DNA from: Mermis nigrescens
Taxonomy: Eukaryota; Nematoda; Enoplea; Mermithida; Mermithidae
Assembly (NCBI GenBank): GCA_036768485.1
Contig: JAVLUZ010000223.1
Span: forward strand, 4,915,893-4,979,892
Reading direction: 5' to 3'
Length of the DNA: 64,000 nucleotides
Part shown: one piece after another, positions 38,501 through 63,673 of the stretch
Layout: the number at the start of each line of letters is the position of its first letter
How positions within the stretch are numbered: position 1 is the first letter of the stretch
Notes under the pieces: generated by a model
Told to the model about the DNA's origin: nothing
Databases searched by the model: none
Seen by the model: only the letters and a program-made list of their open reading frames with translations
Program-made: the position numbers and the translations under genes

Positions 38501-41500
38501 TGGCTCATAAGGAACCTTACCAAACTAGCAACACGTGATTTGCCATAATTCCTTGTTAGTATTTTCCAGAATAATTCAGTTACTGCTTATAATTTTTAGC
38601 AGTTTTGCTGTATTTGTATACTTCAGTTCAACTGGAAAATTTTTCCTTTTTTTGAGCCTCTGCATGCAAGTTACAAAAAAGATGTAGGCATCTACTTTAG
38701 CAATAAAACGATGAATAAACAATTGCAGTTTCATATTTAAAACTGGTAAAGCTTAATTTTTCTAAGAATATGTGTCTGGAAAATAAGACTTTCTTAAAAA
38801 GTGGCTCTGCCGAATCTGAAATCCTTTTCTGCATCGGCCGGTTATCCTAAAAACATTGTCTAGAATGTTCTTAAAAAATCTAGGTATCATTCTTATAATA
38901 ACTTTCTGATTTTTTGAATTTGACGTTGAGATCGAACAAGGCCTACGAGACAGAAATGATTAATACCTACCATTAAGGGCCGATTGAGGGAGGGGAAGAT
39001 CGTGGCTGCCCCCACCTGTCTTCCAAAAAATATTTGGGTGCAATAAGGAATGCTTACGTATTTTTTTGATGATTTTAGCCTTTTTTATCATGATTTTTGA
39101 AATTTTTTCAAAAGTACTCAGTAGTGACATCAGTGACTTTTTTGGCGCTCCAAAAACCGTATTCTTACGTCAAAGCAGTGTTTTTGTACAGAAGAAAATT
39201 TTTTTCAGTCCTTACAGTGATTTTCCGAGTATTTTTCGACGCTTTATGTCGATTTTGGCCTTAATTTAGCGCCTTTTTTATAGACAATTTTCAAAAATTT
39301 TCTAAATTTCAATTTTTTTGCATCAAAAGCATCAGAAATGATTCTGCTGCCTATCAAAAGACGGAAAAAACCCTCAACTTTAAGCATAATGAACGGATTT
39401 TCCGGACAATTTTGGACGCTTTTCGGAAATGTTGGGTTTAGCCCCCAATCTGTTTAGAAAATCCCGGAACCTCCACTGCCTTCCATTATATTCTTCTTTT
39501 TCCTTTTTTAGATTAACCGTGACTGCTTCTTGCCCCATGGATCTGCATTACTTCCCGTTGGACTCGCAATTGTGCACACTTGAAATTGAAAGCTGTAAGA
39601 TATATTTTTAAGCAAGCACTCAAAGCTGAACACTATCTTTGTTTTTTATGTTAAGATGGATATTCTACTGATGATATACAATTGCAGTGGAAGAAAGTAA
39701 CCGGGGTGGAACCGGTTGATGTTGCCAAGGATTGCAAATTGCCTACGTTCCACTTACAACAGCCCTTATTATATGAAGAACGTGAAATAACTTTATCCAC
39801 GGGTAAGATTTTTCTACTAATAGACCCTCTCTTTGAGAACAGTCAAAAATAAAATTTGTTACAAGAATCAACGAAACTAATCGTTTTTAACTTTAAAAAT
39901 TATGATAATTGCGTTGACAAGCAGACATGTGCAGCATGTAAATCTGGGGGTCAGCGCCAAAAATTTTCAAAAATTGCCCTTCGGGCTAAAAACGATGGGT
40001 ACACGTCAAAAACACTGTCTTTACGTTTCGGGCAATGCTTATTCTTTCTGGAACATGAAAACAAAAAATCAAATGAAGTTAAACAAAAATAAAGTAAAAG
40101 AATGAAAAATAAACCAAAAAGTAAAATCAAAAATGAGTAATTTGACATTTTCGAGTCAAAAGTTGGCTAAAAATGCTGGGGTCAAAACCCCACCTAAACT
40201 CACCAAGAACACGTATGGTAACAAGTTATTCCATAGATAAAAATTGCTTTGTTGAATAAGTGAAAAAAGGTGGAATATATAATGGTGGAAAATACTGAGT
40301 GCGAATTTTCCAGGGGACAAACGATGCTTGGGGTTCAAACTTAGGGAGTGAATTGCGCGGGTGGACTGTGAAGCGGTGAGAAATGGCGGACAGATGCCAA
40401 ATTTTAACCCTACATCAATACTGAAATCTGTTTTTCGCGATTAAATTACTTTCAAAACTTAACCAAAAATTTGAAAATATAGCTAAATAAAATACTAAAA
40501 ATTGATAAATTGTTGATTTCTCAATTGCAAAAATATTTCCTATTGGTCATTTAATATGTATTAATAGAACGTATTGCTTATTTTCAGGAAGCTATTCAAG
40601 ACTGTCGTGCAAATTTGATTTCAGAAGAACACTCGGTTTTTACTGGATTCAAATTTATCAACCATCCATTCTTATTGTCACTATTTCATGGGTTACATTT
40701 TGGATAAACAGAGATTCAGCTCCTGCTCGAGTCACGCTCGGCATAATGACAGTTTTGACTATGACAACGCTTATGTCAACGACAAATCGTCAAATGCCGA
40801 AGGTAAATTTGTCCACTAAAATTAATTCTTTCAGATAAGTTACATGACCACACATGGGCATGGGGGTTTTAGGGGAGTATGCACTCCCAGAAGTTCGAAT
40901 ACCCCCAGAAACCAAAATACCCCCAGAATTCATTTTTGAAAATTCTTTTTTGTTTTTTTCGCAATTTTTGATGCCAATGTATAGAGCTCGATGAGAAACG
41001 TTGAAAATTGGTGTTTCTTCGCCATACCATCATTTTTAAGACTATTTTTTGACCTTTAAAAAATCTTGCACCCACCCCAGAATCTTAGTGTTGCTCACCT
41101 ATGTACAGGACATAGGCAAAACTGTTTATAAATTTAAGCTTTATTTCCTGAAATGAGAAAGTCAATGCCGTTGCTTACAATAAGCCTCTGAGCATTCATG
41201 GGCAGCAGCTAAATTCTGGGCGGTCTGATGGGCAAAGTTGTTAAAACTAACATTAAAAATTCAGCATGCAGACATTAGAGCGCACAACATTAGAGCGCTG
41301 ACATTAAAGCGCGCGACATTAGAGCACAACAACATTAGAGCGCGCGACATTAGAGCGCGCGACATTAGAGTACACGACATTAGAGCACGTGACATCAGAG
41401 TGCGCAACATTAGGGCAATGACATTAGAGCACGCGACATTAGAGGGTGCAACATTAAGACACCAACATTAGAGCGCACTACATTAGAGCACACAACATTA

Positions 41501-44500
41501 GGGCACTGACATTAAAGCGCGCGACTTTAGAGTGTGCAACATTAGGGCACCGACATTACAGCACACAACATTAGAGCGCGCAACATTAGAGCGCTCAACA
41601 TTAGAGCGCAACATTAGAGCACGCGATGTTAGAACACACGACATTAGAGCGCGTGACATTAGAGTGTACAACATTAGAGCAACAACATTAGAGCACGCGA
41701 CATCAGAGGGCGCAACATTAAGACACCAACATTAGAGCGCACTACATTTGAGCACACAACATTAGGGCACTGACATTGGAGCGCGCGACATTAGAGTGCG
41801 AAACATTAGGGCACTGACATTAGAGCGTGTGATATTAGAGTGCGCAACATTAGGGCAACAACATTAGAGTGCGCGACATTAGAGCGCACGACATTAGAGC
41901 GCGCAACATTAGAGCGCGCAACATTAGAGTGCGCGACATTAGAGCGCGCGACATTAGAGCGCACGACATTAGAGCACACAACATTAGGGCACTGACATTA
42001 AAGCGCCAACATTAGAGCACCAACATTAGAGTGTCAACATTAGAGCGCGCAACATTAGAGTGCCAACATTAGAGCATGCGACATTAGAGCGCATGACATT
42101 AGAGCGCGTGATATTAGAGCACGCGACATTAGAGCGTGCGACATTAGGGCACCAACATTAGAGCATGTGACATTAGAGCGCGCAACATTAGGGCAACAAC
42201 ATTAGAGTGTGTGACATTAGAGTGTGCGACATTAGAGCGTGCGACATTAGAGCGCGTGTCATTAGAGTGTGCAACATTAGAGCACGTAACATTAGAGCGC
42301 GCGACATTAGAGCGTGCGACATTGGAGCATGCAACATTAGAGCGCGCGACATTAGAGCACGTGACGTTAGAGCACACAACATTAGAGTGCGCAACATTAG
42401 AGCAACAACATTAGAGCACGCGACATTAGAGGGCGCAACATTAAGACACCAACATTAGAGTGCACTACATTAGAGCACACAACATTAGGGCACTGACATT
42501 GGAGCGCGCGACATTAGAGTGCGCAACATTAGGGCACCGACATTAGAGCGCACGACATTAGAGCATGCAACAATAGGGCAACAACATTAGAGCGCGTGAT
42601 ACGACATTAGAGCACACAACATTAGAGCGAGCAACATTAGAGTGCGTGACATTAGAGCGCGCAGCATTAGGGCACCAACATTAGAGTGTGTGACGTTAGA
42701 GCGCACAACATTAGGGCAACAACATTAGAGCGTGTGACATTAGAGCGTGCGACATCAGAGCGCGCGACATTAGAGCGCGCAACATTAGAGCGCGCGACAT
42801 TAGAGCGCGCGACATTAGAGCGCGCGACATTAGAGCGTGCAACATTAGATCATGCAACATTAGAGCACACGACATTAGGGCACTGACATTAGAGTGCCAA
42901 CATTAGAGCACCAACATTAGAGTGCTAACATTAGAGCGCGCAACATTAGAGTGCCGACATTAGAACACGCGGCATTAGAGCACATGACATTAGAGCACCA
43001 ACATTAGAGCGCAACAACATTAGAACGCATGACGTTAGAGCGCGCAACATTAGAGCGCTTGACGTTAGAGCGCACAACATTAGAGCACACAACATTAGGG
43101 CACTGACATTAGAGTGTGCTACATTAGAGCGCCAACATTAGAGCGCGTAACATTTAAGTTCCGACATTAGAGTGCACGACATTAGAGCACCGACATTAGA
43201 GCACCGACATTAGAGCGCACAACATTAGGGCACCAACATTAGAGCGCGCAACATTAGAGCGCCAACATTAGAGCCCGCAACATTAGAGTGCCAACATTAG
43301 AGCATGCAACATTAGAGCACCGACATTAGAGCGCCGACATTAGAGCGCAACAACATTAGAGCGCGCAACATCAGAGCGCAACAACATTAGAGTGTGTGAC
43401 ATTAGAGCACGCGACATTAGAGTGCGTAGAGTGTGCGACATTAGAGCGCAACAACATTAGAGCGCACGACATTAGAGTGTGCAATATTAGAGCATGAAAC
43501 ATTAGGGCACTGACATTAGAGCGCGCGACATTAGAGCGCCAATATTAGAGTGCGTGACATTAGAGTGCCAACATTAGAGCGCCGGCATTAGAGCGCAACA
43601 ATATTAGAGCATGCAACATTAGAGTGCAATGACATTAGAGCGTGCAACATTAGAGTGCGCAACATTAGAGTGCGTAGAGCGTGCGACATTAGGACATTAG
43701 AGCGCAACAGCATTAGAGCGTGCAACATTAGAGCGCACACTATTAGAGTGTGCAACATTGAAGCGCAATGACATTAGTGCACATGACATTAGAGAGCGCG
43801 ACATTAGAGCGCGCGACATTAGAGCGTGCGACATTAGAGCGCACAACATTAAAGCGCCAACGTTAGAGCGTATATGCACTTGCGGATTTGAGGAGCCCCA
43901 TTGAGACCGAAATTTTTTTGAAAAATGCGAGATAAACAGAGAAAATGAGAAAGAAATGAAAGAACGAAAGAAAGAAAACGCTTCAAATAATTTGGAGCTT
44001 TTTCTTCCTTTCGTTCTTTCTTTTTATCATTTTTCAGTTATAACTTAAATTGAAATGGAAAATATCTCGATCAGAAAATATCAGATCCTTTCCTGAGGAT
44101 GAGAAGTCATTTTTTTGGTTCTATTATAATTTTTTGGTCCGCCCGTGCTCCCGTTTATACTCAAGGTCTCTGTAGAATATGCAATACACCATGCTTAATT
44201 GCTTAATTTTTTAAGAAATGCATTATCAAGTGATTTTTTTCTTCACTGCAAATTGCATTACTGATTGTATATTTCCATCTAGCACATTTGAAAAAATTGC
44301 AAGACGTAAGATTTTTTGGCACTGTACTGTTTTAAGGCAGCAGCTGAATTATGTTTCAAAAAAGCTGCCTGGCTTTAGAATTTTGTTGTACAGAAAATTC
44401 AATAACAGGTAGATAGAATGTCTTTTCTGCATAAAAACGACTTCGAGTTCAAGAAAATAATAGAGACTTGTTTTGGTATGAAAATCAAGCTGGTAGAATT

Positions 44501-47500: not shown

Positions 47501-49193
47501 CACTTTTACAATCTTTACGAAAAACCGACAATTTTGGGAAGGGGTTGCAATCACACCTGGGCGTGGGGGGTTTGGGGGTATGCAATGCACCCCCAGAAAC
47601 CAAAATACCCCCCTCCTGAGAAATCAAAATACCCCCCCAGAATTCAATTTTTGAAAATTTTTTCGTCTTTTTCGCAATTTTTTGATGCCAATGGATAGTG
47701 CTTGATGAGAAACGTCGAAAAATGGTGTTTTTATCGCCATACCACCATTTTTAAGGCCATTTTTCGACCTTCAAAAAAATCTTGCACCCCCCCTCCCAGA
47801 ATTTTCTTGCTGCCCACGTATGGTTGCAATGCAACCACACCTGGGCGTGGGGGGTTTGGGGGTATGCACCCCCCAGAAACCAAAATACCCCCCAGAAATC
47901 AAAATACCCCCCAGAATTCAATTTTTGAAAATTCTTTTCGTTTTTTTCGCAATTTTTTGATTCCAATGGATAATGCTTGATGAGAAACGTCGAAAAATGA
48001 AGTTTTTATCGCCATACCACCATTTTTAAGACCATTTTTTGACCTTCAAAAAATCTTGCACCCCCCAGAATTTTCTTGTTGCCCACGTATGGTTGCAACC
48101 ACACGTGGGTTTGGGGAAGGGGGTATAGGGGGTATGCACCCCCAGACGTTGGAATACCCACCCCCCAGAAATCAAAATACCCCCCCAGAATTCAATTTTT
48201 GAAAATTTTTTTTGCTTTTTTAGCGATTTTTTGATGCCATTGGATAGAGTGCTCGATGACAAACGTCGAAAAATGGTGTTTTTTTCGCCATACGACCACT
48301 TTTAAGACCATTTTTTGACCTTTGAAAACCCCCCTCCCCAGAAATTTTTTACCCCCCCCAGAATTTTGGTGCTGCCCACCTATGGTCGCAGCCATTTGCG
48401 GGGGAGGAGGTCAGTTGCCATTCTGGGGCGAAAATTCCCAAACCCCTCCCAAAGAACACGTATGATCGCGTTGAGTAATTCCTAATTTTCTTTTGTAGAG
48501 TTTTTTATTTTAGCGATTTTTAATGCTAAGCGGTTCACGTATGATAAGAAAGTTCCGCCATTAATGTTTCTTGATCTTTGATTTAACAGCTCCAAATATC
48601 AGTCTCGGGCTTTTAATTTTCGAAGATGTGACACATATCAATTTACGGCTCAACTGTCTCAATCACTCATTTATACGTCAACGTGTAAAAACAAATGTGT
48701 TGGTGGTTTCAGCAGTAAACTATAAGTTATTTTTTTAGATACACATACTTATCGGTTTGTATTTTTAATATTTTAAGATTTTTATTACATCTCCACTTTG
48801 TAACACTAAAATTATATTTTCCGACTTTATGCACAATATGCAGCCCTTAGTTATTCAAATATTTTTGGTTATTTTCGATTTTTCTGTTTTGAAATATCTT
48901 GCCTGCTTATGCAGAATATCATATCAATACCCGAAGATCCACGAATGAATTACAATGCAACTGTGATTACGGATCAGAATGAATTTTCCCGCATGAATTT
49001 TTTGATCTCGAAGAGATCGCGAAAAAGACAGCACGCCTTAACTTCCAGATCTAAGCCAATATCCTTCGACGATCGGATTCGACAAGTGGCCGGTAGCGTC
49101 GATAAATATTCGCGGATGATTTTTCCGGGCATATTTACCTTATTCAATGTCATCTACTGGTCTGTCTATTTAAAAATTAGTGGGAAGTTGTAG
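35425..49193 (+). CDS. Cys-loop receptor subunit, GABA-A/RDL-like, anion-selective (gene B, near complete)
   Basis: This gene encodes a ligand-gated chloride channel subunit; pentamers of such subunits sit in neuronal or muscle membranes. Nine exons join in consistent phase: 35425-35519, 36302-36393, 36458-36525, 37192-37415, 39512-39594, 39656-39802, 40588-40802, 46256 to about 46531, and 48915-49193. In order they give a signal peptide ([15 protein letters not shown] from the internal Met), [13 protein letters not shown], the [11 protein letters not shown] loop, a 13-residue Cys loop ([15 protein letters not shown]), ESYGYSTDD across a splice, M1, M2 with [10 protein letters not shown]3, a basic intracellular loop, and M4 ([15 protein letters not shown]) ending five residues after LKI. 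The PAR motif indicates anion selectivity. The ligand is inferred as GABA from overall resemblance; a related inhibitory amine or glycine receptor cannot be excluded. Introns carry many mobile elements. Confidence 0.92.
35512..35777 (+). repeat. 133-bp tandem duplication including a splice donor
   Basis: Positions 35512-35644 and 35645-35777 are near-identical. The unit starts GCTGAAACGTAAAT, so the donor of gene B exon 1 is present twice, at 35520 and 35653. Confidence 0.93.
36302..36393 (+). CDS. Gene B exon 2: N-terminal helix
   Basis: It encodes [20 protein letters not shown] then NYGG. The acceptor is AATTTTCAG and the donor GTAAGC. It aligns with gene A exon 22106-22188. Confidence 0.88.
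36458..36525 (+). CDS. Gene B exon 3
   Basis: It encodes [20 protein letters not shown] then EM. The acceptor is TTTTTCAG and the donor GTATGT. Confidence 0.9.
37192..37415 (+). CDS. Gene B exon 4: loops D, A and E region
   Basis: It encodes [32 protein letters not shown] and ITTSQ. The acceptor is TTTTGTATAG and the donor GTGAAC. This one exon covers the two gene A exons 19346-19436 and 18266-18401. Confidence 0.92.
37429..37700 (+). repeat. Family 2 repeat copy
   Basis: It begins GACATGCACGCAGGACC and ends near CGGTCATGCTGTGCAC, similar to 1507-1745. It starts 14 bases after the exon 4 donor. Confidence 0.5.
38975..39479 (+). mobile_element. hAT-like element (CAGTGGCGG family), about 505 bp
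   Basis: The flanks CTACCATT and CTTCCATT match at 7 of 8 bases. The right end GGAACCTCCACTGC and the interior match the elements at 3249 and 18847. The right end lies 32 bases upstream of gene B exon 5. Confidence 0.6.
39512..39594 (+). CDS. Gene B exon 5: Cys loop
   Basis: It encodes [20 protein letters not shown] and TLEIES. The acceptor CCTTTTTTAG is in phase 2 and the donor GTAAGA in phase 1. Confidence 0.93.
39656..39802 (+). CDS. Gene B exon 6
   Basis: It encodes [14 protein letters not shown] and [19 protein letters not shown]. The acceptor is TTATGTTAAG and the donor GTAAGA. Confidence 0.9.
40588..40802 (+). CDS. Gene B exon 7: M1 and M2
   Basis: It encodes [50 protein letters not shown] and TNRQMPK. 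The acceptor is TTATTTTCAG and the donor GTAAAT, in phase 0. Confidence 0.94.
40849..41103 (+). mobile_element. MITE-1 copy, 255 bp
   Basis: It starts CACACATGGGCATGGGGG and ends in GCTCACCTATG. The flanks TACATGAC and TACAGGAC match at 7 of 8 bases. It starts 47 bases downstream of the exon 7 donor. Confidence 0.82.
41270..43870 (+). repeat. ACATTAGAGCGCGCG minisatellite, about 170 units
   Basis: Units of mostly 15-16 bp have a constant ACATTAGAG core and variable GC-rich tails (GCGCGCG, CACGCG, GCAACA and the like). Because many units are 15 bp, long frames read LERAT, IRARD or LMSRA repeats on both strands; they are artefacts. Confidence 0.97.
43880..45430 (+). other. Sequence between the two satellite arms
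   Basis: It contains two short tandem duplications: a 70-75-bp unit with TTAGGAGCAGCCAGAAC near 45050 and 45115, and a 37-bp unit with CGATTCTGAATCGGAAAG near 45250 and 45285. Small overlapping reading frames on both strands (44218-44741) have no recognisable family. They are probably chance. Confidence 0.5.
45437..45545 (-). repeat. Inverted short arm of the ACATTAGAG satellite
   Basis: About six units read GCGCTCTAATGTCG, the complement of the main array. So the long and short arms form unequal inverted repeats around the 1.55-kb centre. Confidence 0.88.
46256..46531 (+). CDS. Gene B exon 8: M3 and intracellular loop
   Basis: It encodes [20 protein letters not shown] then [12 protein letters not shown] and a basic loop. 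The acceptor GTGCTTTTTAG is clear. The donor is uncertain: GTATAC at 46532 keeps phase 0 with the last exon, but earlier GT sites exist and an extra small exon is possible. Confidence 0.82.
46742..47215 (-). mobile_element. MITE-1 copy (outer), split by another copy
   Basis: CATATGAT is exactly duplicated at 46734-46741 and 47216-47223. The left end is CATAGGTGAATAGCACC and the right end GCACACGTGTG. It is interrupted by 46813-47058 in the opposite orientation. Confidence 0.85.
46813..47058 (+). mobile_element. MITE-1 copy (inner), 246 bp
   Basis: It starts CACACCTGGGCGTGGGG and ends in GCCCACGTATG. The flanks GTGATATG and ATGATATG match at 7 of 8 bases. It sits inside the 46742-47215 copy. 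Confidence 0.87.
47552..47822 (+). mobile_element. MITE-1 copy, first of three in a row, 271 bp
   Basis: It starts CACACCTGGGCGTGGGG and ends in GCCCACGTATG. GTTGCAAT is exactly duplicated at 47544-47551 and 47823-47830. Confidence 0.9.
47836..48091 (+). mobile_element. MITE-1 copy, second of three, 256 bp
   Basis: The same ends are present. The flanks AATGCAAC and GTTGCAAC match at 6 of 8 bases; the left flank overlaps the previous copy's duplication. Confidence 0.88.
48100..48384 (+). mobile_element. MITE-1 copy, third of three, 285 bp
   Basis: It starts CACACGTGGGTTTGGGG immediately after GTTGCAAC and ends in GCCCACCTATG. The right flank GTCGCAGC matches at 6 of 8 bases. Confidence 0.87.
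48915..49193 (+). CDS. Gene B exon 9: end of intracellular loop, M4, stop
   Basis: After the acceptor GCTTATGCAG the frame reads [15 protein letters not shown], a basic stretch (SKRSRKRQ), [20 protein letters not shown] then YW, and stops at 49191-49193. The [19 protein letters not shown] pattern is the M4 hallmark of anionic Cys-loop receptors. Confidence 0.94.
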   Translation, partial: NIISIPEDPRMNYNATVITDQNEFSRMNFLISKRSRKRQHALTSRSKPISFDDRIRQVAGSVDKYSRMIFPGIFTLFNVIYWSVYLKISGKL

Positions 49194-49440: not shown

Positions 49441-50141
49441 CTCAGAAAGCTAGGGATGCAAAGGATATACAGATCCGTTATTATACGGTATTATTTTGGA
49501 TCCGGATCCGGATCCGGTATTTTGAAAAATTAGGATCCGAATCCGGATCCGGTGTTTTTACAGTTTAAAACGGATCCTAAACGGATTCAAAAGATTATGA
49601 TAAAAGATCATTAAACCTTGAATTGTATTGAAGAAACAACATCACTATGAGACAAAAGCTTTATTTTGATTGATATAATACTCAAATTCAATAACAGGCA
49701 AATTGAATTTAAGAAACAGCAGCTTTTCTGCAACCAAAGAAAACGGTAAATTGCTCAAAGTCATAAGCTCAACTAACCGCTTATCTATATCAATTGATCT
49801 TGCATCATAGTTAGTCCATTTTTTACCCTTAAATCGTACATAAGTTAATTATTAGGAATCCTCTCTCAAAAATAAAATATGTCACACAGCAAGTAAGCAT
49901 TCTTCCATTGTCTTTTGCACTTTTTGTTTTTCCTTTTCAAAGCAGTCTTTTCACAATCTGCGCGTTTTTCTGCAAAGGAAAGTAGACATGCCTAACGCGA
50001 ATCTTCTACAATCTGTGCTTAACAAAAATACCTTTTTCCTCTTCTTCGATCTGCTGGGCTGGGGGACTCCTCTGCTTTGAACTTTTTATAATCCGCCGCA
50101 TGCTTAGTTTGTAGATGCTTTTTCATACAGGTGGTGGTATC

Positions 50142-50677
50142 CACACATGGGCGTGGGGGGTTTGGGGGTATGCACCCCCCCAGAAGTTGAAATACCCCCA
50201 CCCCCAGAAATCCAAATACCCCCACCCACACCTGGGCGTTGGGGGGTTTGGGGGTATGCACCCCCCAGAAACCAAAATACCCCCCCAGAAATCAAAATAC
50301 CCCCCAGAATTCAATTTTTGAGAATTTTTCCGCTTTTTTCGCAATTTTTTGATGCCAATGGATAGTGCTTGATGAGAAACGTCGAAAAATGGTGCTTTTA
50401 TCACCATACCATCGTTTTTAAGGCCATTTTTTGACCTTCAAAAAAATCTTGCACCCCCCCAGAAATTTCTTGCTGTCCACGTATGCCCCCACCCCCCCAG
50501 AATTCAAATTTTAAAATTTTTTTTGCTTTTTGGCGATTTTCTGATGCCATTGGATAGTGCTTGATGAGAAACGTCGAAAAATCGTGTTTTTCGCCATATG
50601 ACCACTTTTAAGACCATTTTTTGACCTTTGAAAATTTTTCCACCCCCCCTCCAGAATTTCGGTGCTGCCCACCTATG
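50142..50677 (-). mobile_element. MITE-1 copy (outer) inside the BED finger, 536 bp with insert
   Basis: GTGGTATC is exactly duplicated at 50134-50141 and 50678-50685. It starts CACACATGGGCG and ends in GCCCACCTATG. It carries the inner copy at 50227-50485. Confidence 0.9.
50227..50485 (+). mobile_element. MITE-1 copy (inner), 259 bp
   Basis: CCCCCACC is exactly duplicated at 50219-50226 and 50486-50493. It starts CACACCTGGGCG and ends in GTCCACGTATG. Confidence 0.9.
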
Positions 50678-51194
50678 GTGGTATCCCTCCACCGCTTCTG
50701 GAAAGCTTTGTTGCGCAGAGATTACATTGCGATTTAGTTTCGTTATCAGCTAGCGTAAAATAGTTCCAGATAGGATTATAAATGCTTTTTGGCATTTCCG
50801 ATTAATGAGAGAACGACACAAGATTCGCAGTTTTTCAAGCTAGAGCCGAATTGAGATCAATCCGGACCACTGAACGAAGCTCATGCAGCTTTACTTATTT
50901 CATCATAGTACAGTAATTCAGCTTCTGAAACTAATAAGCCTAAAAACCGTACTTGCGAACAATAATTTAAGTATTAAAAAACACTAAGCGTTCATAATGT
51001 ATATTCATGGATCCGGATCCGTTATTATCCGTTATTTTAATAATAAAAGATCCGGATCCGTTATTGTAAATTGTACGGATCCGGATCCGATATTATTGGA
51101 AAACCCGGATCAGTTGCATCTTTCGTTTTCGAATAAGATTGTTTTATATCAGCAGGTAACGAATGGTATAAACGTGAAGCATAAGGATCTAGAA

Positions 51195-51810
51195 ATCCAG
51201 TCATAAATTTTAGACGATCAGTTTGTCGATATCATAGGTATCGGCAAGTGATTCAAATCCTGCAAAATATGCTTTTATATCCGTTTTATCGCCATCAAAA
51301 AATTTTTTATTTGCAATTGCGATTTGCATTTGCGTCATAAATGGTCTGCAATTCAAGGAATCAGCGAGATGCGATTTACCACGCGAGCCTTCAGATGAAG
51401 AATCTGAACTATAATGGTGACGTCGTCGGCGCGATCTACTTCTGTGATGCTAGCGACGGCTACACGGGCAATCATAGCTATTTGAAGAGCTTTCATCAGA
51501 AAATTTTACATGCCGTCTCCTACTAGATGATTCATGGAGAGGCGCAGATTCATTTTGAAAATTTGCAGGTTCGTGATTAGTGCCAGATAAATTTATTTCT
51601 ACAGGTTGCATTTCGATATTAGAGGAATGCAAAATAGGATTATTAGGTGGTATTTCCAGATTCACGGGATTAGGTACATAATTATTTGGAAAGATTTCTC
51701 CTTGAGGTGGAAAATATTGCAGTGGTGGTGGATTTAACTGCTGCTGCGCGCTCGCATTTACAGAATTTGGTACGAAAGAAGGCGCATTACGATTTAAGGA
51801 CAGTGTAAAT
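51195..51810 (-). pseudogene. Retroelement gag fragment
   Basis: The minus-strand frame starts in a Pro/Asn/Gln-rich stretch and passes an Arg/Ser-rich basic region with an in-frame TAG near 51450. It then reaches RPFMTQMQIAIANKKFFDG, DIKAYFAGFESLA and DTYDIDKL before stopping. The FxG...I..Y...FE..A pattern is how Ty3/gypsy capsid domains begin. The rest of gag is missing, so this is a truncated copy. It sits on the same strand as the large retroelement to its right. Confidence 0.6.
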
Positions 51811-52279: not shown

Positions 52280-53215
52280 TTTCGGATAAAAATAGCAATC
52301 ACACGGAAATTACCTATCCTTCCACTTGGATGAGTTGAAATCCTCGACGTGGGCAATAACCGACCTAACCCTCGGTATAACCAAAAACCCCTGGGTAGGT
52401 TTTTCTCTATTTTATTACGAACGAAGAATCCACGGCCTGTAGCCGGACAACCAAATAAAGCAAAACGAAAAACGAAAATGTACGGACTATACACACGTAC
52501 GGTGGCCAACGAGACTGCCAACAACTCTACTCACAAAAACTCGAAGTACACTGGCCTCAAGGACCATTACAGTAAAATAAACAAAGATCAAATCAACGTA
52601 ATACTGATACACTTTTATCTCAGATCGAATGTTATTGATTACACAAGCGGTATGCATGAAACAATTACTATTATCATACACTTAACTCTATGTTACCGGA
52701 CAAGTATCTTAATGTTTTTTATTATTGAAAATTGGGGAAAAAATGGGAAGACCGAAGGCATAGCCCACAGTGCACTATCGTAGATAGCTACTAGTATTGG
52801 CTATGTGATGGCTATCGCGAACTGCTAAGGCAAGTTCGCCTATACGTGTAACTCTCGTAGTTACACTCCCCCACGTATAGAAAAAAATTTGAAACGAAGT
52901 GGAGAATTTTTTCGGGGGTAAACCAATGCCAATAGCGTCTGCCACGCTTCTATAACTCGGCACTCTGGCATTCGCAACGCCTCTACTCTGGCGTCCGCAA
53001 CGCCTCATCCTGAGCAAACGTGAAAAACGAAAATAAAAGAAGGAAAAATAACAAATAGCGATAACAAATAACGGCCAACGCATGACCTCGTTCGCACTCA
53101 GGAAACTCTCGAGCAACACTCTCAATGGCGCTAGGTATAACTATATTGTTGCCCGAGTAATGATGAACTCCGGTCTTGGACAGCATTGCATAATATTTGA
53201 TCTCGCTGCCCAATT
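52280..53215 (-). other. Possible LTR region of the retroelement
   Basis: On the minus strand the purine-rich run GACTGAAGGAGG lies at about 53217-53228. It is followed by roughly 0.9 kb with no coding content that ends with an AATAAAATAGAG polyadenylation-like stretch near 52420. The gag fragment lies beyond it. This is the position expected for an LTR, but only one copy is visible, so it cannot be proven. A short hairpin (GTAACTCTCGTAGTTAC) lies near 52847. Confidence 0.35.
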
Positions 53216-56094
53216 AGCCTCCTTCAGTCCCCGGGTAATGAGAAAAATTTTGAATTGAAAAAGGTTTAAGATTGGGTATAAATTAACCCCTTGTCCGTTA
53301 AAGAGTTAAGATACCATAATAGTAACACCACTATTTGAGCAAAAAGAAAAATTAAGACACGGAATGATTAGGCAAAATTATGCTGAGCAAAATTAAAGAC
53401 ACTGACGAGTTAAAACACAAGGTAACAATAAAACAAAAAATGGCAAATTATGTGAGATAACTGGGAAAAATAAGAGCACCGTCAAAGAAAAATTTACAGC
53501 AAGAAAGAAAAAATGACAAGAGAAAAATTACACAGAAAATAAACGATACGTGAAGTCCTGGAATCCACATCAGGACAAAAAACGAAAAATGACGAAAAAG
53601 CTGCTGGTCGAATTTGACGCCATTCGCAGAGTTCCAAAAAGTTCTGTACGTCGAACTTGTGAATTAATATTGATCCTGATAATAGGCCTTCGAGCCATGC
53701 GGTTTTCCGCGACGTCGTTGACGTTGAAAATAATCACGATCCGATTCAGGTTTGCGACGCGTACTCAAACGTTCGCGATACTGGTATGGCGATTGCCTAC
53801 GCCCGTACATATGTTGGTGTAAGCGTTGATGTGGATCGACTGGATCGATCATCGTCCTCAAAGTTGTCGTCTGTCCTCGTAGTCGTCTGCGTAACGACGC
53901 AGTATAGATTGCACTGGAGTAAATAATTGCTCCGGAGTAAAACCAAACGTTTGTTCACGTGAAGATTCGCGTGGACGCTGTTGTGATTGCGTAACAGGCC
54001 ACAGTTTAGGCAAAAGTGGACCTGGTCGAGGTTGTGGTTGATAGACCCCGGTGGCTGATTGATATTGTTCCAACGGTGAACAATACAATTGGTCCCATTG
54101 TTGCCGTTGACGGGATTGCGACCGGCCCTGATGAGTTCCGCGGTTAGACTGTGGCGGACGGCAATATTCATAAGGCTGCTGCTGTTGTGAGCGCGACAGA
54201 TGACCAGCATCGGCCTGTGAATATGCCTCGGAACGCTGACGCGATTCCGTAAATTGCTGTTGCCGCGGTTGGGTCTGCGGTCGTGTGTGTTGCTGTATAT
54301 GTGGTTTTACTTGTGCCTGTGGTTGTACTTGTGATTGTGAACGATGATGCATTTGAGCATAACGTTGCCGGGATGACTGCGGTTCTTGCCGCTTAGATCC
54401 TCTTTGACTTGAACGTGCTCATAATTTAGCTGCAACTTCAGCTTGAACAAGTCTTCTGACTCGTTGTTTTTCCAAATTCTTTAACTGACACAGGGTATGC
54501 TCGGATTTTGTATCATAAAATCGATTCAATTTAGCCTTATGTTCGTCTTCCAACATATGACGAACTTCTGAGGATTCAGCGAGAGAACCGGCGGCGCGTA
54601 ATTTTGTCGCACGCCTTGGCATCTCTGAAGCCAGATTTTCACGATCGCGTTGTTCGATTGTCATGCGTGCTCTACGCATTTTGACTTGTGCCTCCAGAGA
54701 TAGATCGACTTCGGGCATATCAAGGCTCGCTGAGGATCCACTTGGGTCCTGCGAGGATGCCTGCCGTCTCTCTTTTCGAATTTTTTCTAAATCACCTTGA
54801 ATTCGGTGTTTAAGGTAAAACACAGATTTTTGGCGACCTCAAAAACGGTCAAATTGAACCGGCACTTCAAGTGGCGGATCGGTTGCTAACCAAATTTGAC
54901 GAATCATGTTATGTAACACCATTGGACTTTCAATTCGCCTCGTTAACTCCGGGAATTCTGGGAAGGCCTCTCTTGGCGAAGGTATGTAAGATTCGCCAAG
55001 GAAAGCTACGCGCAACATACGACGTAGCCGCTCCACCATGCGCCAGCCTATCGCGGCATTGCCGTAGGCATACGCATAAAAGTGGAACTTTCGGTCCAAA
55101 AATTCCAACAGCACTTTGGCGTGCATGACGTCTATTGTTGAAAAGATCGTCATGTGTCGATACTCCGAATCGTATAACGATTGAAACTCTCGGAAGGTAT
55201 CGAAAATATCGACCATTTGACGTGTCAATATTAAGATCGGCGCTAAATGATCTGGTGCTGGTGACATTCTGTGCGGTTAAAATTCTGGAAGGATCTGGTG
55301 CGTAACGCCATCAATCACCACACTCGGTGCATCAAGGTGTGGATGGACTACCAGGTACTGTAAAGGAACTTCGTACAGCATCATTCCGGTTGTAATGAAA
55401 AACCGGGTGCGCACAAAAAATTGGTCAGGGTAAAATAATCGGTTAAAAACGCTCATTTTGCTGATAAATCGAGGTGCCGGCGCACAATCAACATCAGCCA
55501 AAGGTTGTGCAATTGTAGACCAAACTGAAGGACGCGAGGGTGTGTCAGTCGTAGCCGCGTAATGCAGATGTGCTGCGTACACCCGGTCGAAGTGCACTTG
55601 GGCGCACTCGACCAATTGGTCGTACAGACGCGTTCCTGCGACTTCACCCAGATAAGAGCGTAACTCGTGCAATACGTCAGGCGCAATATAGCATGGTGCT
55701 TCACGCGTCATGGTCTCCATCATGTTGAAAAAATGTTGCACATAACGCGAGCGATTTTGAACTCTCGCGTTCTCTTCTGCGGATACGCGTTCGCGTATGG
55801 CTTGAATATGCGCAGGTACTGCGACTTCTAGATTCGACGGTGGATTTTGAATAACCTGTGGTTGAATATTCGCCACAGTATTTGACACTCCCATCATGGC
55901 CATAGGAGCCGTAAAACAAGTAGTAAGTGCCACTGAGCTCGACACGCCTTGTGGCGCGGATTGGGACGCGATTTGCGTGGATAACGCTACTTGTTGGCTT
56001 TCCTGTGCGGGTGGTGAGCGTTGTGGTGGCGGTGGGAATCCTATAATTTCGCTCATGATAACGTCGGGTTCAGCTTGATGCTCTACCCAATCTG

Positions 56095-56509
56095 GGGCCA
56101 ATTCATTTCCACTTGGAATTCCAAGTCCCAAGTTCCAAGTCTTGGAAAAACGTGAAATTTTCCAAGTCCTAGTTTATTTGCTCCGTCATTTTCCAAGTCC
56201 TTAAAATTCCAAGTTCCAAGTTCCTAGTCTTGGAAAACCGGCTTTTTTCCAAGTTGTGATTTATTTGCAGCTCGGTTTTCCAAGTTCCAAGACTTGGAAT
56301 TTCCAAGTGTTTTTCCCAAGTAAATGTGCATTTTTCCAAGAGTCGGTTCATTTGCTTCTGAATTTTTTGACTTGGATTCCAAGTCTTGGAAAATTTACTT
56401 GGAAAATAGCATTATTTTTTCCCAGTCGATTTTCAGTTGGAAAAATTTTTCCAAGCGCGTTAAGTCGATCTTATACATATTATTTGGCGCTAGTGAATAA
56501 TCAAAAATC

Positions 56510-56540
<31 letters not shown>

Positions 56541-58192
56541 GTAATAAATAATAATAAAAGTAATAATAATTATTATTATAATACATTAATAAATAAATCT
56601 TATGTTTTTCAAATTTATCGGAATAAACCTGTGACATTTAAAAATCCAAATAAATTATTATGCGAGTGTAATTATTTTTTCAATAAGTAAAAAGGATAAA
56701 TTTGAGAAATTATGATCACTAACGGCCAAAAATCATCGCATATTACATAAACAGCCAAACATTTTTGCCCCTCCCCTTAAATCCGCCCCTGCTTTAAATA
56801 TACGTACAAAAAATCTTATAAAACAGTCTGAAAATCTAGAATTATTTCATTTCCGATTTAACTAAATAGCTTTTCACATCTCAAGATCGTGTTAGATGCC
56901 GCTTGCAAAGCAAATTCGCCCTCTCTTGCATGTTGCAGAAAACTGACTAGATCAGCATAAGTTGCTCTTTGAAAAAGTTTATCAGCAATTTCTAAATAAG
57001 ACTAATTTTCTAAAAATCTATAGTACAAATATTGCAAAGTCGAGAAATTTAAATTCTTTTGAATTGCATTATTTAGATTTCATAATATCAATAATAATAA
57101 TGCTAAAAAATAATAATAATAATCACGACAATAATAATTATGACAATCATAATGAAAAAATTGTTCTACGAGTCAAGCAAGACTGTTCCGTTATTTTAAA
57201 GAATGCTACTCAAAATAAGTAAAAAATATACGATTCTGTCAAATATGCAGCCTTATAATGCTAAGTTGCAGTACATACGCGCAATTTATTGGATAATCGT
57301 GCATAAATAGGCATTCAACAGTGACTTGCAGGCGTCGCGCAAGATATAATGTAGGTACATAAATGTACAGAGTTCTCCTTTGTTCTCATTTATTGTGATG
57401 AATATCTGAAAACAACTTTTTTAAATCCAACAATCATGCAATTTTCAACAAATCAAGGAGGCTAAATAGTAGAGTATGTTGTGTTTTCAGCTTATTTCTA
57501 CGTACTTCTGAGTACGACTCTACACCGGATCCACTTTGATGATTCTTGTCGAACTTCCGTAATGTAGCTTTCCGCAGATCTTGCCAGCATTCATCACGAA
57601 GTTTACTCCACGATTTTTCTTAATATTTCGTCAATCCTCGCGATAGCGTTTCTCTTTGCACTTCTTTGCACGCCGCTTATTTGTCTTTATTCGTTAATTT
57701 TACAGAAAATGCCCAAAAATTACGCCTCTTCTTTCCTCAATTGCCTTAAACGCTATTTTGTACGCGCGTTTTATCGTTCGGTGGTTTTCGGCACGACATT
57801 TTTAGCGCAGTGTTTGCGAACACAATGACATTCCACCAAAAACAACGTTTTCACAAGAGACGCGCGTGTGACACTCCTTATTGCTTTTATCGTACCTTAA
57901 CTCACGCGCAGCGCATTGTGAACAGATTTATGTTGATTAGACTTGGAAATTTTTATCCGAGCTCGACTTGGAAATTCCAAGTGCTTGGAAAGAGCAAAAA
58001 GACAGACACTTGGAAACTTGGAAAATTAACTTGGAGACTTGGAGAAAAAACGACATTTTTCCAAGTTGAAAAATGCTAATGACTTGGAACTTTTATTTGA
58101 GCAAATGAACTGACACTTGGAAACTTGGAAATTCCAAGTCTTGGAAACTTGGAACTTGGGACTTGGATTTCCAAGTGGAAATGAATTGGCCC
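56095..58192. mobile_element. Foldback-like element with CCAAGTCTTGG arrays, 2098 bp
   Basis: The ends GGGCCAATTCATTTCCACTT pair almost perfectly over about 45 bp. CTG flanks both sides (56092-56094, 58193-58195), suggesting a 3-bp duplication as in PIF/Harbinger. Inside each end the unit CCAAG/CTTGG recurs many times (56115-56410 and 57940-58170), itself palindromic. The centre has an AAT microsatellite and no recognised gene. Removing it restores an open frame (TSQ-PDWVEH) in the host ORF. Confidence 0.8.
56511..56600 (+). repeat. (AAT)n microsatellite
   Basis: An interrupted AAT/TAA run inside the foldback element. Confidence 0.9.
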
Positions 58193-59256
58193 CTGGCTGA
58201 GAAGTTGGTAAAGGTAGGAGCGAACCGAAGCCCAAGGGTGCCTGCTGGTCCGCCGCAAGCGATTGTGAAACAATCGGTTGCAAAATGGTAGTAGCCCCTT
58301 TCGAGCCAATGCCGCGCGTGTGGTACATGGTGGCGACAAGTTTGCTTGCCTTTCCGCCTCAGCATCGGATAACGCCATCACTAATTGTTTAGGAGACAAA
58401 TCGTCGTCCTCAGTGGAGATAGATGGTTTTATTCCTACCATAGGAGAATCGTAAGGAATATCACTTTGCGAAGAAATCGCAGAAGCTGGGGTACTTGAGC
58501 TGGTTGGTTTGAACTTAGGTTCGGTGTCAGGTGCATTAGCCGGGCCCAAAACTGAGTCGGCTACGGCCTGCAATCCCTGAACTTTCAGATCTGGATTATC
58601 GAAAACATTAGTATGAGCCAACGCTTCCGTTACAGAGGCAACGGTGGTGGCTGCGGCTATGGCCGCTGGTGGTTGCAGAGCTGGACCATAAAAGTCCTCT
58701 ACTGTGACTAACTCTTCGCCATCAGAATCAACGGAAACATCAGTCACTGTGCTGGTCGACTGGCCCCGTGATGGCTTGCGAGATGACAACGGTATACACC
58801 GTCTAGTTTTTGATTCATTAGCTTTAACGTGCGATTTGTCGCCTTTAAACAAAATTGGCATAGGCTTTCTATCGTCGGTAATGCAATCATTTTGCGAGCA
58901 GCCTTCTATCAATATGAAAACATCGATAGTTATCAGGGCATCCATTGCTAAATAATGTTGCATATCCCGACTTAGTGGTAAACTCCACGCCTGTCCAAAA
59001 TTATCAGGCGCGTTGGGATCAATAGCCATGTCAAAGAAAAATTCAGCCAAGCGCTTTAAAGTGTGTGAATGCACTGTAATATGGAGACGGCAAGTAAACA
59101 ATCTCGCCAAAGGCTGAATATCGATAAAATTTGCACTAAACGGATCTTTCCAATGCCGTTGATTTCGAATCTCGGCATCAGGAATTGCCAAAATTTCTTC
59201 GAAAGTTGGGCCGTAAACATGAAAATACGCAAGTCTGTCTTGCGTAGGGTCGTAAC

Positions 59257-59520
59257 CATACGTGGGCAGCAAGAGAATTCTGGGGGGGGGTGCAAGATTT
59301 TTTTGAAGGTCGAAAAATTGCCTTAAAAATGGTGGTATGGCGATAAAAATACCATTTTTCGACGTTTCTCATCAAGCACTATCCATTGGCATCAAAAAAT
59401 TGCGGAAAAAACGGAAAAAATTTTCAAAAATCGAATTCTGGGGGGTATTTTGATTTCTAGGGGGGGGTATTTTGGTTTCTGGGGGTGCATACCCCCCCAA
59501 ACCCCCCACGCCCAGGTGTG
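59257..59520 (-). mobile_element. MITE-1 copy in the exonuclease ORF, 264 bp
   Basis: It starts CATACGTGGGCAGC and ends in GCCCAGGTGTG. The flanks GTCGTAAC and GTCTTTAC match at 6 of 8 bases. Its removal joins VC to YDPTQD in the exonuclease frame. Confidence 0.88.
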
Positions 59521-61334
59521 GTCTTTACAGACCATATATACGTTTGGTAGACGCGTTTAGAGCAGCTGATGAAGCCCAAACAGAGGTTTTGGGAACTTCG
59601 CGATGTCCCAGCAGAACACATGACCGTTTGCGCTAGTAACTTGGACATAACGAACGAATGGGCCATGGAGGTCCTGATAGGTGGGACATAGCTGCTTAAA
59701 ACGCAAATCCCAGGTCTTATAGGTTCTGCCTTTTCTGTCATTCACAAATTCTGAATCATAGCCTAAGAATAACGTGCCATTAGTCATGTTTGATGGCTGA
59801 ATCAAAGCCAAAATAGCCCCAAAAGACTCTTGGTCATTGGTGATTAAAACAGTGGATAGAAGTCTCTTCTTTGGCACACGAAGGGTAGCCAAAGGGAATC
59901 TATCAAACCTGTTCTCCCACCAGAGCTCTTGGTCATTCATACATTTACTATGATTTGTTGCTATATGTGATGTTTTATGCTGTATCATCTTTGCGGTAAG
60001 TGCGTCTAAACCGCCAACACGACTGTCATCATTTTGTGGCAGCGGGTCTGGTACAACCAACCCCCGCTCCAAAGCCATATTAGTCAAAGCCGAACGAAAC
60101 TCATCTAGGGACGCGGGATCACGCCCCTCAAATTTGCATCGGCGACCAGCTGCCTCCAGCAATGCCTCCTTGCTTGGGGTACCTTCAGCAGCCATGGGTC
60201 TGCAAAAGGGAAAAATTAGCTAATGGTACGGCATTTGCTGTTTTAGAGCCATTTAATAAACGTATAGGCGCGCAGTCCTTAGCTTTTTGTTCCCTGCCCG
60301 GTAAATCCTCAAAACTTATGACTACTGCCGGGGCAAGAGGGCAATGCGGTAATTTTACCAGAACAAAATCGCCAGGGACATACGCGTGTTTTTCCACAAT
60401 TAAATCGGAGTAGGGTAGTTTGGGCTCAGGCAGAAGTCTATTCCGGTGAACAAGATGAGTGATTAGAGGATTATAGACATACGCGATTTTCACAGTTTCA
60501 GGCGTAGGTAAGTCGATAATTCTATATGGTCCAACACGTTTGGGTGAAAGTTTACCGATTTCAGGTTGAATTACTGAGGTATTATTAAGGTAAACTATAT
60601 CCGAGAGAGAAAAATTTGTTTGAGTTACGGACTTGTCATATTGAGATTTTTGCTGCTTACGCGCTTGAGCTAAGTTTTGAGACGCGATTTCGTGTAGATC
60701 TTGTAAAGTCAGCTTTAAGTCAATGACATATTTTTCCGCAACAGATGGTAAATTCGGATTCATGACAAAGTCATTTATGAGTAGAGTGTCAAGTGGAAAT
60801 GCTGGTTTGCGACCATAAAGCATTTCAAAAGGAGATATATTAGTTGATGATTGCGGAGTCGCGCGATATGCAAATAACGCGAAAGGTAGAAATTGCTCCC
60901 AATCATACTGGGATCGTGCACTCAGCTTGGACAAACCATCAATCAATGTGCGATTGTAAGGTTCCACCAACCCATCACACTGGGGGTGATATGGGGTTGT
61001 AAATATTTTTTGAACGTTTAATAGTTTACAAACTTCCGAAATTAGGGTAGATGTAAAGTTTGACCCCTGATCTGTCAAAAATTTCTTGGGAACTCCGTAA
61101 CGTGGAATAATTTCTCTTAGTAATAGATTTGCAATAGTTGTTGCTTTTATGTCAGAAACAGCAAAAGCTTCCACATATTTGGTAAAATAATCCATAAAAA
61201 CCACAATTTGGTCATTTCCGGAGGGAGATCGCGGCAAATGCAAACAATCACACGCAATAAGTTCAAAAGGCGCGGATACTTTGATTGGTTGCAGTGGAAC
61301 GGATGTGGAATTTAATGCGACCTTACGTTGTAAG

Positions 61335-61598
61335 CACACCTGGGCTTGAGGGGGTTTAGGGGGGGTATGCACCCCCCCAGAAACCAAAATACCCCCCCCA
61401 GAAATCAAAATACCCCCAGAATTCAATTTTTGAAAATTTTTTCCGTTTTTTTCGCAATTTTTTGATGCCAATGGATAGTGCTTGATGAGAAACGTCTAAA
61501 AATGGTGTTTTTATCGTCATACCACCATTTTTAAGGCCATTTTTCGACCTTCAAAAAAATCTTGCACCCCCCCAGAATTTTCTTGCTGCCCGCGTATG
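61335..61598 (+). mobile_element. MITE-1 copy in the integrase, exact duplication, 264 bp
   Basis: GTTGTAAG is exactly duplicated at 61327-61334 and 61599-61606. It starts CACACCTGGGC and ends in GCCCGCGTATG. Removing it restores the integrase zinc finger running into its linker (CDVCLQRK). Confidence 0.95.
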
Positions 61599-63673
61599 GT
61601 TGTAAGCACACATCACAATTCCTACACCATGCGATCACATCATTTTCCATGCGCGGCCACCAATAACGCATTTGTATGGCGGGCAAGATTTTGCGCGATG
61701 AAAAATGAGCTCCGAAAATAGAGTCATGAAATTCCGTTAATATGAAGCGACGTAAAGATTAGGGTATGACAATTTGATGAACAACTGTTGGTGAATGTTT
61801 AGGTTGGAATCTACGAAAAAGTACATCGTTTACGAGAAAAAATTCGTCACGATATTTTTTCGTTGTTAAGTCATTTAATGCAATGCGAATTTTATGTAAT
61901 TCATCATCTGCACGTTGCTCTGCGAGTAAACGCGCAGGTGTTAGCATTTTGGCTTTTTCAGCATCGGTAAGTATTAGGCGTTCACAAAATGTAGGTGGTT
62001 TTGTATTGGTAGGATTGATTTGCGCAATAGGATTATTATTTTGCGCATTTGGATGATTAATTGGTGCAGTAGGCGCATTATCGCGCAATCGGTCAGGTGG
62101 AAACGATTCATCATCTGACTCAGAGTCTTCAGATTCTAAATTTGCGATGTTAACAACATTTTTGCGCTCGAGTTTATATTTTCGTTCTGCATGATCATAT
62201 TTAGGGTGTCGTGAAAGAAGATCAGCTGCGCAGTTATATGCACCAGGAACATAAACGATGTCATATTCATATTCTTGTAATTTGAGACTCCAACGACGTA
62301 AATGACTCAATGGGTCTCTAACGTTTACTAGCCAAGTTAATGCTTGATGATCAGTTTGACAATGAATTTTTTACCGTAAAGATAATGTCGATAATGCTTT
62401 ATGGCCCACACTACCGCTAATGCTTCTTTTTCCGAAGTAGCATAGTTACATTTGGCAGAATTTAGCACGCGACTAGCGTAGCTAAGAATAAAACGATTTT
62501 TGGATGGTAAATGTTTTTGTGTCAAAATAGCACCTAACGCATAATTACTTGCGTCAGTTGTTAAAATAAATTGGTGCTCATCATCGAATTTTGGTAGTTG
62601 CAAAATAGGTGGGGACATAAATGCTCTCTTCAGAAGCTCAAAGGCGGTTTGGTGTTCGGCCTTCCAGCAAAATTCGACATCTTTACGAAGAAGATGGAAT
62701 AACGGTTTAGCGATTTTAGCAAGATCTTTAACGAATTTCTTAAACCATTGGACTAAGCCAAGGAATTTCTGCAAGGATTTCACGGTTTTTGGTACAGGAA
62801 ACGACAATAAATCTGCAACTTTGGACATGTCAGGAGCAATGCCCATTGCACTTATGCTGTGGCCAAGAAATTTTACCTCTTCATGCGCAAGATGGCATTT
62901 ATCCGGCTTTACACGTAAGTTTGCTTTTTTAAGAGCAATAAAGACATTTTCAAGATCTTTTAAATGTTCTTTAAAAGTGCGTGAAAAAATAATTATGTCA
63001 TTGATGTAAACGAGACTAGATTTCCAATTTAGACCTGCGAGCACAAGCTCCATTAGCCTTTGGAAATCTGCGAGCGCATTTTTTAAACCAAAAGGTAAAA
63101 CTTCAAATTCGTAATGACCAACAGGACATATGAATGCCGTTTTTTCATGAGATTTATTATTGAGTGGGATTTGCCAGAATCCAGATTTTAAATCTAGTGT
63201 GCTGAAATATGCAGCATTGCCTAAAGTATCAAAATAATTGTCTAATTGTGGAAGAGGATAAACTTGCGTTTTAGTAACATCATTTAACCGTCGATAATCA
63301 ACGACCGGCCTAAGGGAACCGTCCTTTTTCCTATGAGAAATAATGGACTTGCCCATTGGCTGGTTGTAGGTCGAATAATTTTATCCGCAAGCATTTCATT
63401 TATAATTTTCTGCATAGATTCTCTTCTAGAATGTTCAACACAATAGGTTTTTCCAACAACGGGCGGATTATCCCCTGTATCAATATGATGTTTCATCAAG
63501 GGGGTACGTCCGAGAGGTTCGTTTTTTAATGCAAAAATTGAGTCGTATTTTAAACAAAGTTCACAAATTTGTTGCTGTTGTCGAGAATCAACAGCGGAGC
63601 CAATTAAAGCTTTATTTATTGATGCAAAAAGTTCTGGTGTCCTATCATCAAAAGATGAAACATGCGACACAAC

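Follow-up and report, generated by a model that had tools for sequence, protein, structure and literature searches.

A high-copy Ty3/gypsy retrotransposon family of Mermis nigrescens whose third coding unit probably carries a DEDDy-like nuclease domain

Env-bearing Ty3/gypsy retrotransposons consist of gag-pol and a third open reading frame (ORF) that lies before the 3' long terminal repeat (LTR) and is probably expressed from a spliced RNA. In the nematode Mermis nigrescens, a high-copy Ty3/gypsy LTR retrotransposon family has a third ORF that resembles a nuclease, not an envelope protein. One decayed member of this family lies in the 64,000-nt stretch analyzed here (assembly GCA_036768485.1, contig JAVLUZ010000223.1, positions 4,915,893 to 4,979,892), hereafter the window. 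Its third coding unit, termed ORF2, probably encodes a protein of ~1,390 residues whose N-terminal part is a DEDDy-like (RNase D-like) nuclease domain. RNase D-like DEDDy ORFs have been reported after pol, as ORF3, in Juno and Vesta of bdelloid rotifers, and also in Terminons (Rodriguez, Kenefick and Arkhipova 2017, PMC5408684), the latter being repeated in PMC6431247. Terminons, which are Penelope-like giant rotifer retroelements, share accessory DEDDy ORFs with the Mermis family but are not LTR elements and have a different class of reverse transcriptase (RT).

Like Juno and Vesta, the Mermis family probably carries, between its LTRs and where env would lie, an RNase D-like DEDDy ORF located after pol, a likeness judged from the published description. 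Unlike Juno and Vesta as described, the ORF spans ~1,390 residues, of which ~900 are constrained and of no known family, is present in at least 134 scored copies, and is preceded by a conserved acceptor-like site before its ATG. Where rotifer ORF3 has DEDD changed to DEED (PMC5408684), the acids of ORF2 are D-E-D-D. The uniqueness implied when the window was initially annotated, from its letters alone, has to be read against the published rotifer ORFs. According to PMC6338049, a DnaQ-like exonuclease is well known as an accessory domain in LTR elements; three papers are cited there for it, the rotifer study being one, so other cases may be in print. No DEDDy ORF in LTR elements outside rotifers was found in literature titles and the beginnings of abstracts, a survey that left most subscription papers uncovered, and the accessible part of PMC7968707 makes no mention of LTR elements with DEDDy ORFs. 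Judged by that literature, what is new is the host, how large and how constrained the ORF is, the number of its copies, and the acceptor-like site. Protein searches with the exonuclease (exo) piece of ORF2 and with its piece C1 returned no relatives outside the genome, although only proteins of 0.55-1.75 times the piece length could be found and full-length relatives would be missed. Scans of IMG/VR gave no match, whether the query was the exo piece, the RT piece, the RT relative P0001, or RNase D, the last for profile building.

ORF2 inside the element

Separate 3' and 5' pieces were taken from five sister copies in the host genome (524 Mb, 860 contigs). Long LTR pairs were present in three of the five (95.6%, 97.3%, and 99.1% identity), a fourth had a partial pair (97.4% identity, with the start of the 5' LTR masked), and no LTR pair was found in the fifth. 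In the three sister copies printed, the LTR starts with TGTAACT.CGAGAGTTACACG after the purine tract GTGGGGGAG, and its length from start to primer site was 1,045, 1,049, and 1,051 bp in three copies. All four 5' pieces that hold the LTR end contain the primer-binding site (PBS) TTGGACGTTCCC, and the 5' LTR ends in TTTACA in three of these four. Both flanks could be read in two copies, and the printed letters there were read as 4-bp target duplications, CACT and TTTA. Four of the 3' pieces contain the end of ORF2 as well as the 3' LTR, and in these ORF2 stops 790-805 nt short of the LTR. LTRs with a PBS and polypurine tract (PPT) and a short target-site duplication are features by which Ty3/gypsy members are recognized, and a position after pol and before the 3' LTR is that of the rotifer DEDDy ORF3 group. 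As the LTRs, PPT, PBS, and target duplications enclose gag, pol, and ORF2, ORF2 belongs to the element, lying between the LTRs of sister copies, and LTR-gag-pol-ORF2-LTR is a real transposition unit.

The initial annotation had also placed ORF2 in the element, reasoning that it starts inside the pol stop codon. In fact the ATG of the window copy lies 8 nt before that stop. Pol was open at this point in 17 sister copies, all but one (L108) of the 18 loci of sufficient length, and its frame continues there for 91 nt beyond the ORF2 ATG, or for 90 nt in two copies whose start had been assigned with a shift of one base. Contact with the pol stop is hence private to the damaged window copy and the start-codon argument fails; membership follows instead from the element ends. 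The sister copies with LTRs around pol and ORF2 that the annotation had suggested looking for do exist, in four of the five tried when the partial pair is included.

A genome search with the exo piece gave at least 134 scored matches of 2,506 candidates, dispersed over many contigs, and in 121 of the 134 the matched part is free of stops; the window copy is among the rows, and identical scores may represent assembly duplicates. This contradicts the possibility, raised at the outset, of an ORF found mainly as a spliced host gene. Open frames of 1,371-1,398 residues were found in 27 rows, one of them with a stop inside the match. Both the nuclease-like part and the C-terminal part of ORF2 are under purifying selection. 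Codons 1-390 of 24 open copies were aligned position for position, with no gaps, and the 267 pairs with dS > 0.05 and identity >= 0.70 had a median dN/dS of 0.122 (range 0.055-0.283). For codons 391-980, seven divergent pairs from five copies had dN/dS of 0.097-0.176, and values of 0.32-0.42 came from three near-identical pairs that differ at few sites.

The nuclease-like domain

The N-terminal domain of ORF2 probably has a DEDDy-like fold, and its assignment as an exonuclease, founded on motifs and sub-threshold profile matches, is likely. In agreement with the initial annotation, GYDSEF, PTQDRL, FIDIQPLAR, and WSLPLS..YLAMDA are all present in the window ORF2 in that order, giving the DxE of ExoI, the D of ExoII, and the YxxxD of ExoIII in the sequence typical of DEDDy proteins. 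The corresponding residues D62, E64, D144, Y239, and D243 are invariant in all 17 natural domains, which were picked from 27 readable ones by identity < 98.5%. Where a miniature inverted-repeat transposable element (MITE)-like insert interrupts the window copy, natural copies have the ExoII-like stretch VYMVCYDPTQDRLAYFHVYG. PF01612 was the only Pfam family at E<=1, matching 13 of the 17 natural domains (best E 0.005). When the family was compared with 16 DEDDy sequences by hhalign, 143 columns aligned (P 3.6e-4, probability 37%) with ExoII and ExoIII in register with those of bacterial RNase D. Relative to RNase D, the ORF2 domain is very distant, with longer spacing after ExoI and after ExoII. 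All 16 DEDDy rows contain the ExoIII pattern, which arose in 85 of 200,000 shuffles and appears once among 120,633 six-frame residues of the window, at 58987 in ORF2; the ExoI and ExoIII search patterns were composed after the ORF2 sequence was known. A broader RNase D profile was built from E. coli RNase D and 15 of 44 listed plasmid or phage hits chosen for diversity. With this profile, 72 of 5,000 shuffles reached the real score of the C half of the window domain; the N half gave 556 of 5,000 when taken whole and 117 of 5,000 when cut to its last 90 residues, and five natural domains gave 19-57 of 5,000. For the controls the counts were 937-1,889 (ORF2 pieces C1-C3) and 623 (integrase) of 5,000.

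Several results weigh against the domain being a nuclease. The PF01612 matches fall below the curated cut-off (12.9-14.7 bits printed vs 23.6), the window exo piece reached E values of only 0.096 and 0.028 with none for the first half, and PF01612 was absent at E<=1 from ORF2 stretches of 1,001-1,015 residues in five of five copies. With a narrow RNase D profile (12 sequences from 80 of 202 E. coli RNase D relatives, the named ones being Enterobacterales), hhalign gave the two exo pieces probabilities of 0.4-0.6%, no different from those of two control pieces, and the scores were reached by 829 of 1,915 (C half) and 380 of 1,819 (N half) listed shuffles. Searches of NCBIfam, PHROGs, and PDB sequences returned no nuclease. 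ExoI is identified by its motif only: hhalign sets a WDLRF stretch, not DSE, on ExoI of RNase D, and ~22 more residues than in RNase D would have to precede strand 2. Two AlphaFold models, one from a single sequence and one from 17 sequences, both have a pLDDT of 33. Finally, the 17 domains average 93% identity, so the invariance of their catalytic residues says little. The initially annotated DEDDy exonuclease retains its motifs, its sub-threshold PF01612 match, and the hhalign alignment, but no score at cut-off and no confident model.

An unrelated constrained protein in which the motifs are coincidental would account for profile scores that all lie under the curated cut-off, for the low pLDDT, for the DSE that hhalign does not place on ExoI, and for an ExoI pattern that turns up in 2,924 of 200,000 shuffles. 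We consider this unlikely, given that PF01612 is the sole Pfam match and is shared by most natural domains, that the hhalign P value is low, that the ExoIII pattern has no second occurrence in the six frames of the window, and that natural copies show the ExoII-like stretch. Also improbable is a DEDDy fold that serves as a nucleic acid-binding platform and not as a nuclease. EXD1 and Maelstrom, inactive DEDD derivatives that retain RNA binding (PMC5408684), offer precedents, and the ORF2 tail is basic and Q/R-rich. In contrast, none of the 17 natural domains, close as they are to one another, has lost any of the five catalytic residues expected, and ORF2 is under purifying selection.

Expression and origin of ORF2

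A splice acceptor-like tract (60200..60219, minus strand), comprising a pyrimidine run and GCAG, ends 4 nt before the ORF2 ATG and is accompanied by a branch point-like CTAAT. Among the 1,440 CAGs on both strands of the window, that of ORF2 is one of three with 12 of 12 upstream pyrimidines, which places it among the strongest acceptor-like sites there. The pyrimidine run, GCAG, ACCC, and ATG were kept in 36 of 36 readable copies, the window copy included (38 loci were examined, L114 and L139 giving none); three apparent losses of the ATG arose because the start was placed from the match, and the ATG is present in the printed sequences. Conservation of the acceptor-like site in all readable copies suggests that ORF2 would be made from a spliced subgenomic RNA, as is env. 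Weighing against this, the acceptor stretch is at the same time part of the Pol coding sequence, and its conservation could be due to either function.

If ribosomes shifted into the -1 frame at TTTCCCT, within the overlap, ORF2 would be translated as a Pol-ORF2 fusion; in sister copies, judged by eye, ORF2 lies in the -1 frame of pol and the heptamer is suitably framed. Whereas the acceptor-like site and ATG context occur in all 36 copies, the heptamer is kept in 24 and missing in 12, and we regard such a fusion as quite unlikely. An env-like protein would be expected in just this position and probably with its own splice acceptor. It is nevertheless a very unlikely identity for ORF2, in which no convincing membrane segment was seen: in the ORF2 pieces of the broken window copy, the top 19-residue hydropathy was 0.04-1.68 per piece, the single value > 1.6 corresponds to the ExoIII region, and the membrane-anchored third ORF that marks env-bearing Ty3/gypsy elements was not found. 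A neighboring host gene outside the element, which a third-position GC of 0.42 in ORF2 vs 0.30 in pol might suggest as a sign of foreign or later origin, is barely credible for an ORF that lies between the LTRs and near the PPT of sister copies and is dispersed over many contigs. The difference in third-position GC, reached in none of 5,000 permutations, fits a separate origin for ORF2, and ancient capture is possible.

The window copy and the proposed role of ORF2

Read on the minus strand from the right end of the window, the decayed copy consists of a damaged Ty3-type pol, encoding RT-RNase H and integrase, and then the long ORF2. The RT and the start of RNase H (62337..63356) are damaged and match Pfam RVT_1 (6.2e-32) and RT_RNaseH_2 (7.9e-32); among solved structures, the RT piece matches RT/RNase H 4ol8 (3.6e-75) and Ty3 Gag-Pol 7q5b (4.1e-74). 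The same piece retrieved 1,952 proteins at E<=1e-10 among 3,637 candidates, the best being a metagenome protein (56%), and the RT motif, YIND in the window copy, is YIDD in the best relative, P0001. An open frame without a Pfam family (61759..62310, minus strand) separates RNase H from the integrase core and C-terminal part (60185..61330, minus strand), which matches Pfam rve (5.1e-12, on 60185-61471) and best matches Ty3 Gag-Pol 7q5b (3.7e-14). The Ty3-type RT and the order of RT before integrase are those of Ty3/gypsy elements, as had been recognized from the start. By eye, the integrase has ~70 extra residues after a GPY-like motif (60400-60185, minus strand), SH3- or PWWP-like and possibly a targeting module, and the only Pfam indication is SH3_Tf2-1 (E 0.012), farther upstream.

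ORF2 follows in three pieces on the minus strand. The first (59557..60195), which starts at the ATG at 60195, contains the N-terminus and the ExoI-like DSE and has no Pfam family. The second (58202..59260) contains the ExoII-like and ExoIII-like motifs and then the linker, and matches PF01612 at E 0.028 (58700-59272). Between them is the MITE-like insert (59254..59523, minus strand), with 83-94% identity to most other copies in the window. The C-terminal part (53665..56131), of no known family, contains stops and a frame change and ends in a tail of basic, Q/R-rich composition; four sister 3' pieces end in corresponding residues, and the frame 56131-53858 has four stops vs 27-40 in each of the other five. 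By eye, frame changes are likely near 58.3 kb and 53.87 kb. The annotation had recorded the MITE as the interruption of ORF2, but a second insert of ~2 kb (56094..58201) with inverted ends (58-nt arms, 90% complementary) also breaks the frame. The extent it gave for the element, 53858..60195, likewise missed an LTR and a gag fragment beyond ORF2. The PPT GTGGGGGAG (52866..52874, minus strand), the same tract that is printed ahead of the 3' LTR of three sister copies, lies beside a single LTR that was delimited by alignment to sister-copy LTRs (minus strand, 52865 to about 51806). A gag fragment of the same family (51121..51803, minus strand) abuts this LTR, with 84-90% identity to the 5' pieces of five sister copies; it is gag-like by eye, has no Pfam match, and corresponds to a stretch that sits ~1.5 kb inside the 5' LTR in four sister copies. 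With these corrections, the initial observation is partly confirmed and its interpretation partly supported.

A single MITE-like family has inserted three times in the window retroelement, before RT, in integrase, and in ORF2. Its copies in the window are at 40.8-41.1, 46.8-48.4, 50.1-50.7, 59.3-59.5, 61.3-61.6, and 63.7-63.9 kb, and flanking duplications of ~7-8 bp were visible by eye in two of three places printed. Near the end of the gag fragment is a BED zinc finger-like fragment (50019-50291 and 50700-51100, minus strand; zf-BED E 0.014, below cut-off), possibly derived from a DNA transposon. Elsewhere, the window contains a ligand-gated ion channel-like exon at 48810-49193 (Neur_chan_memb E 6e-7), further such exons by eye at 14.2-14.5, 37.2-37.4, and 40.5-40.8 kb, a gene between 0.5 and 2.7 kb that resembles potassium channels (sub-threshold Ion_trans_2 match, E 0.0013), and Ly6-like exons. 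An array of 15-bp tandem repeats (ACATTAGAGCGCGCA) with strong AT skew occupies 2.6 kb (41272-43870, ~176 copies).

As the third coding unit after gag and pol, ORF2 would comprise the nuclease-like domain, an A/S/P-rich linker, the part of no known family, and the basic Q/R-rich tail. It would be expressed from a spliced subgenomic RNA by way of the conserved acceptor-like site just before its ATG, like env of other elements. The tail may then bind RNA and the protein may trim RNA 3' ends, either of the transcripts of the element itself or of host small RNAs that target them; we offer this role tentatively. For the rotifer ORFs, RNA 3'-end processing was proposed and a mut-7-like role weighed (PMC5408684). 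Proofreading in cDNA synthesis would require the protein to sit inside the particle beside RT, and is the less likely role, since a protein expressed on its own does not form part of Pol. More speculative, and on present evidence unlikely, is the full scenario of a successful animal Ty3/gypsy lineage with a dedicated and selected nuclease with a large new C-terminal module, which has taken the place of env, is translated from a spliced RNA of its own, and counters host small-RNA silencing by shortening RNAs at the 3' end.

For the extra ORFs of rotifers, copy number was not unambiguously correlated with their presence, nor was a significant departure from neutrality reported (PMC5408684), and that study left open whether they help the element; in Mermis, purifying selection is seen in a high-copy family. 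If the full scenario holds, DEDDy nucleases would, together with the rotifer cases, be a recurrent weapon of animal LTR elements. With both the nuclease-like and C-terminal parts constrained in a high-copy family, the use that a retroelement makes of a nuclease becomes testable, and the Mermis genome holds many uninterrupted ORF2 copies for such testing.

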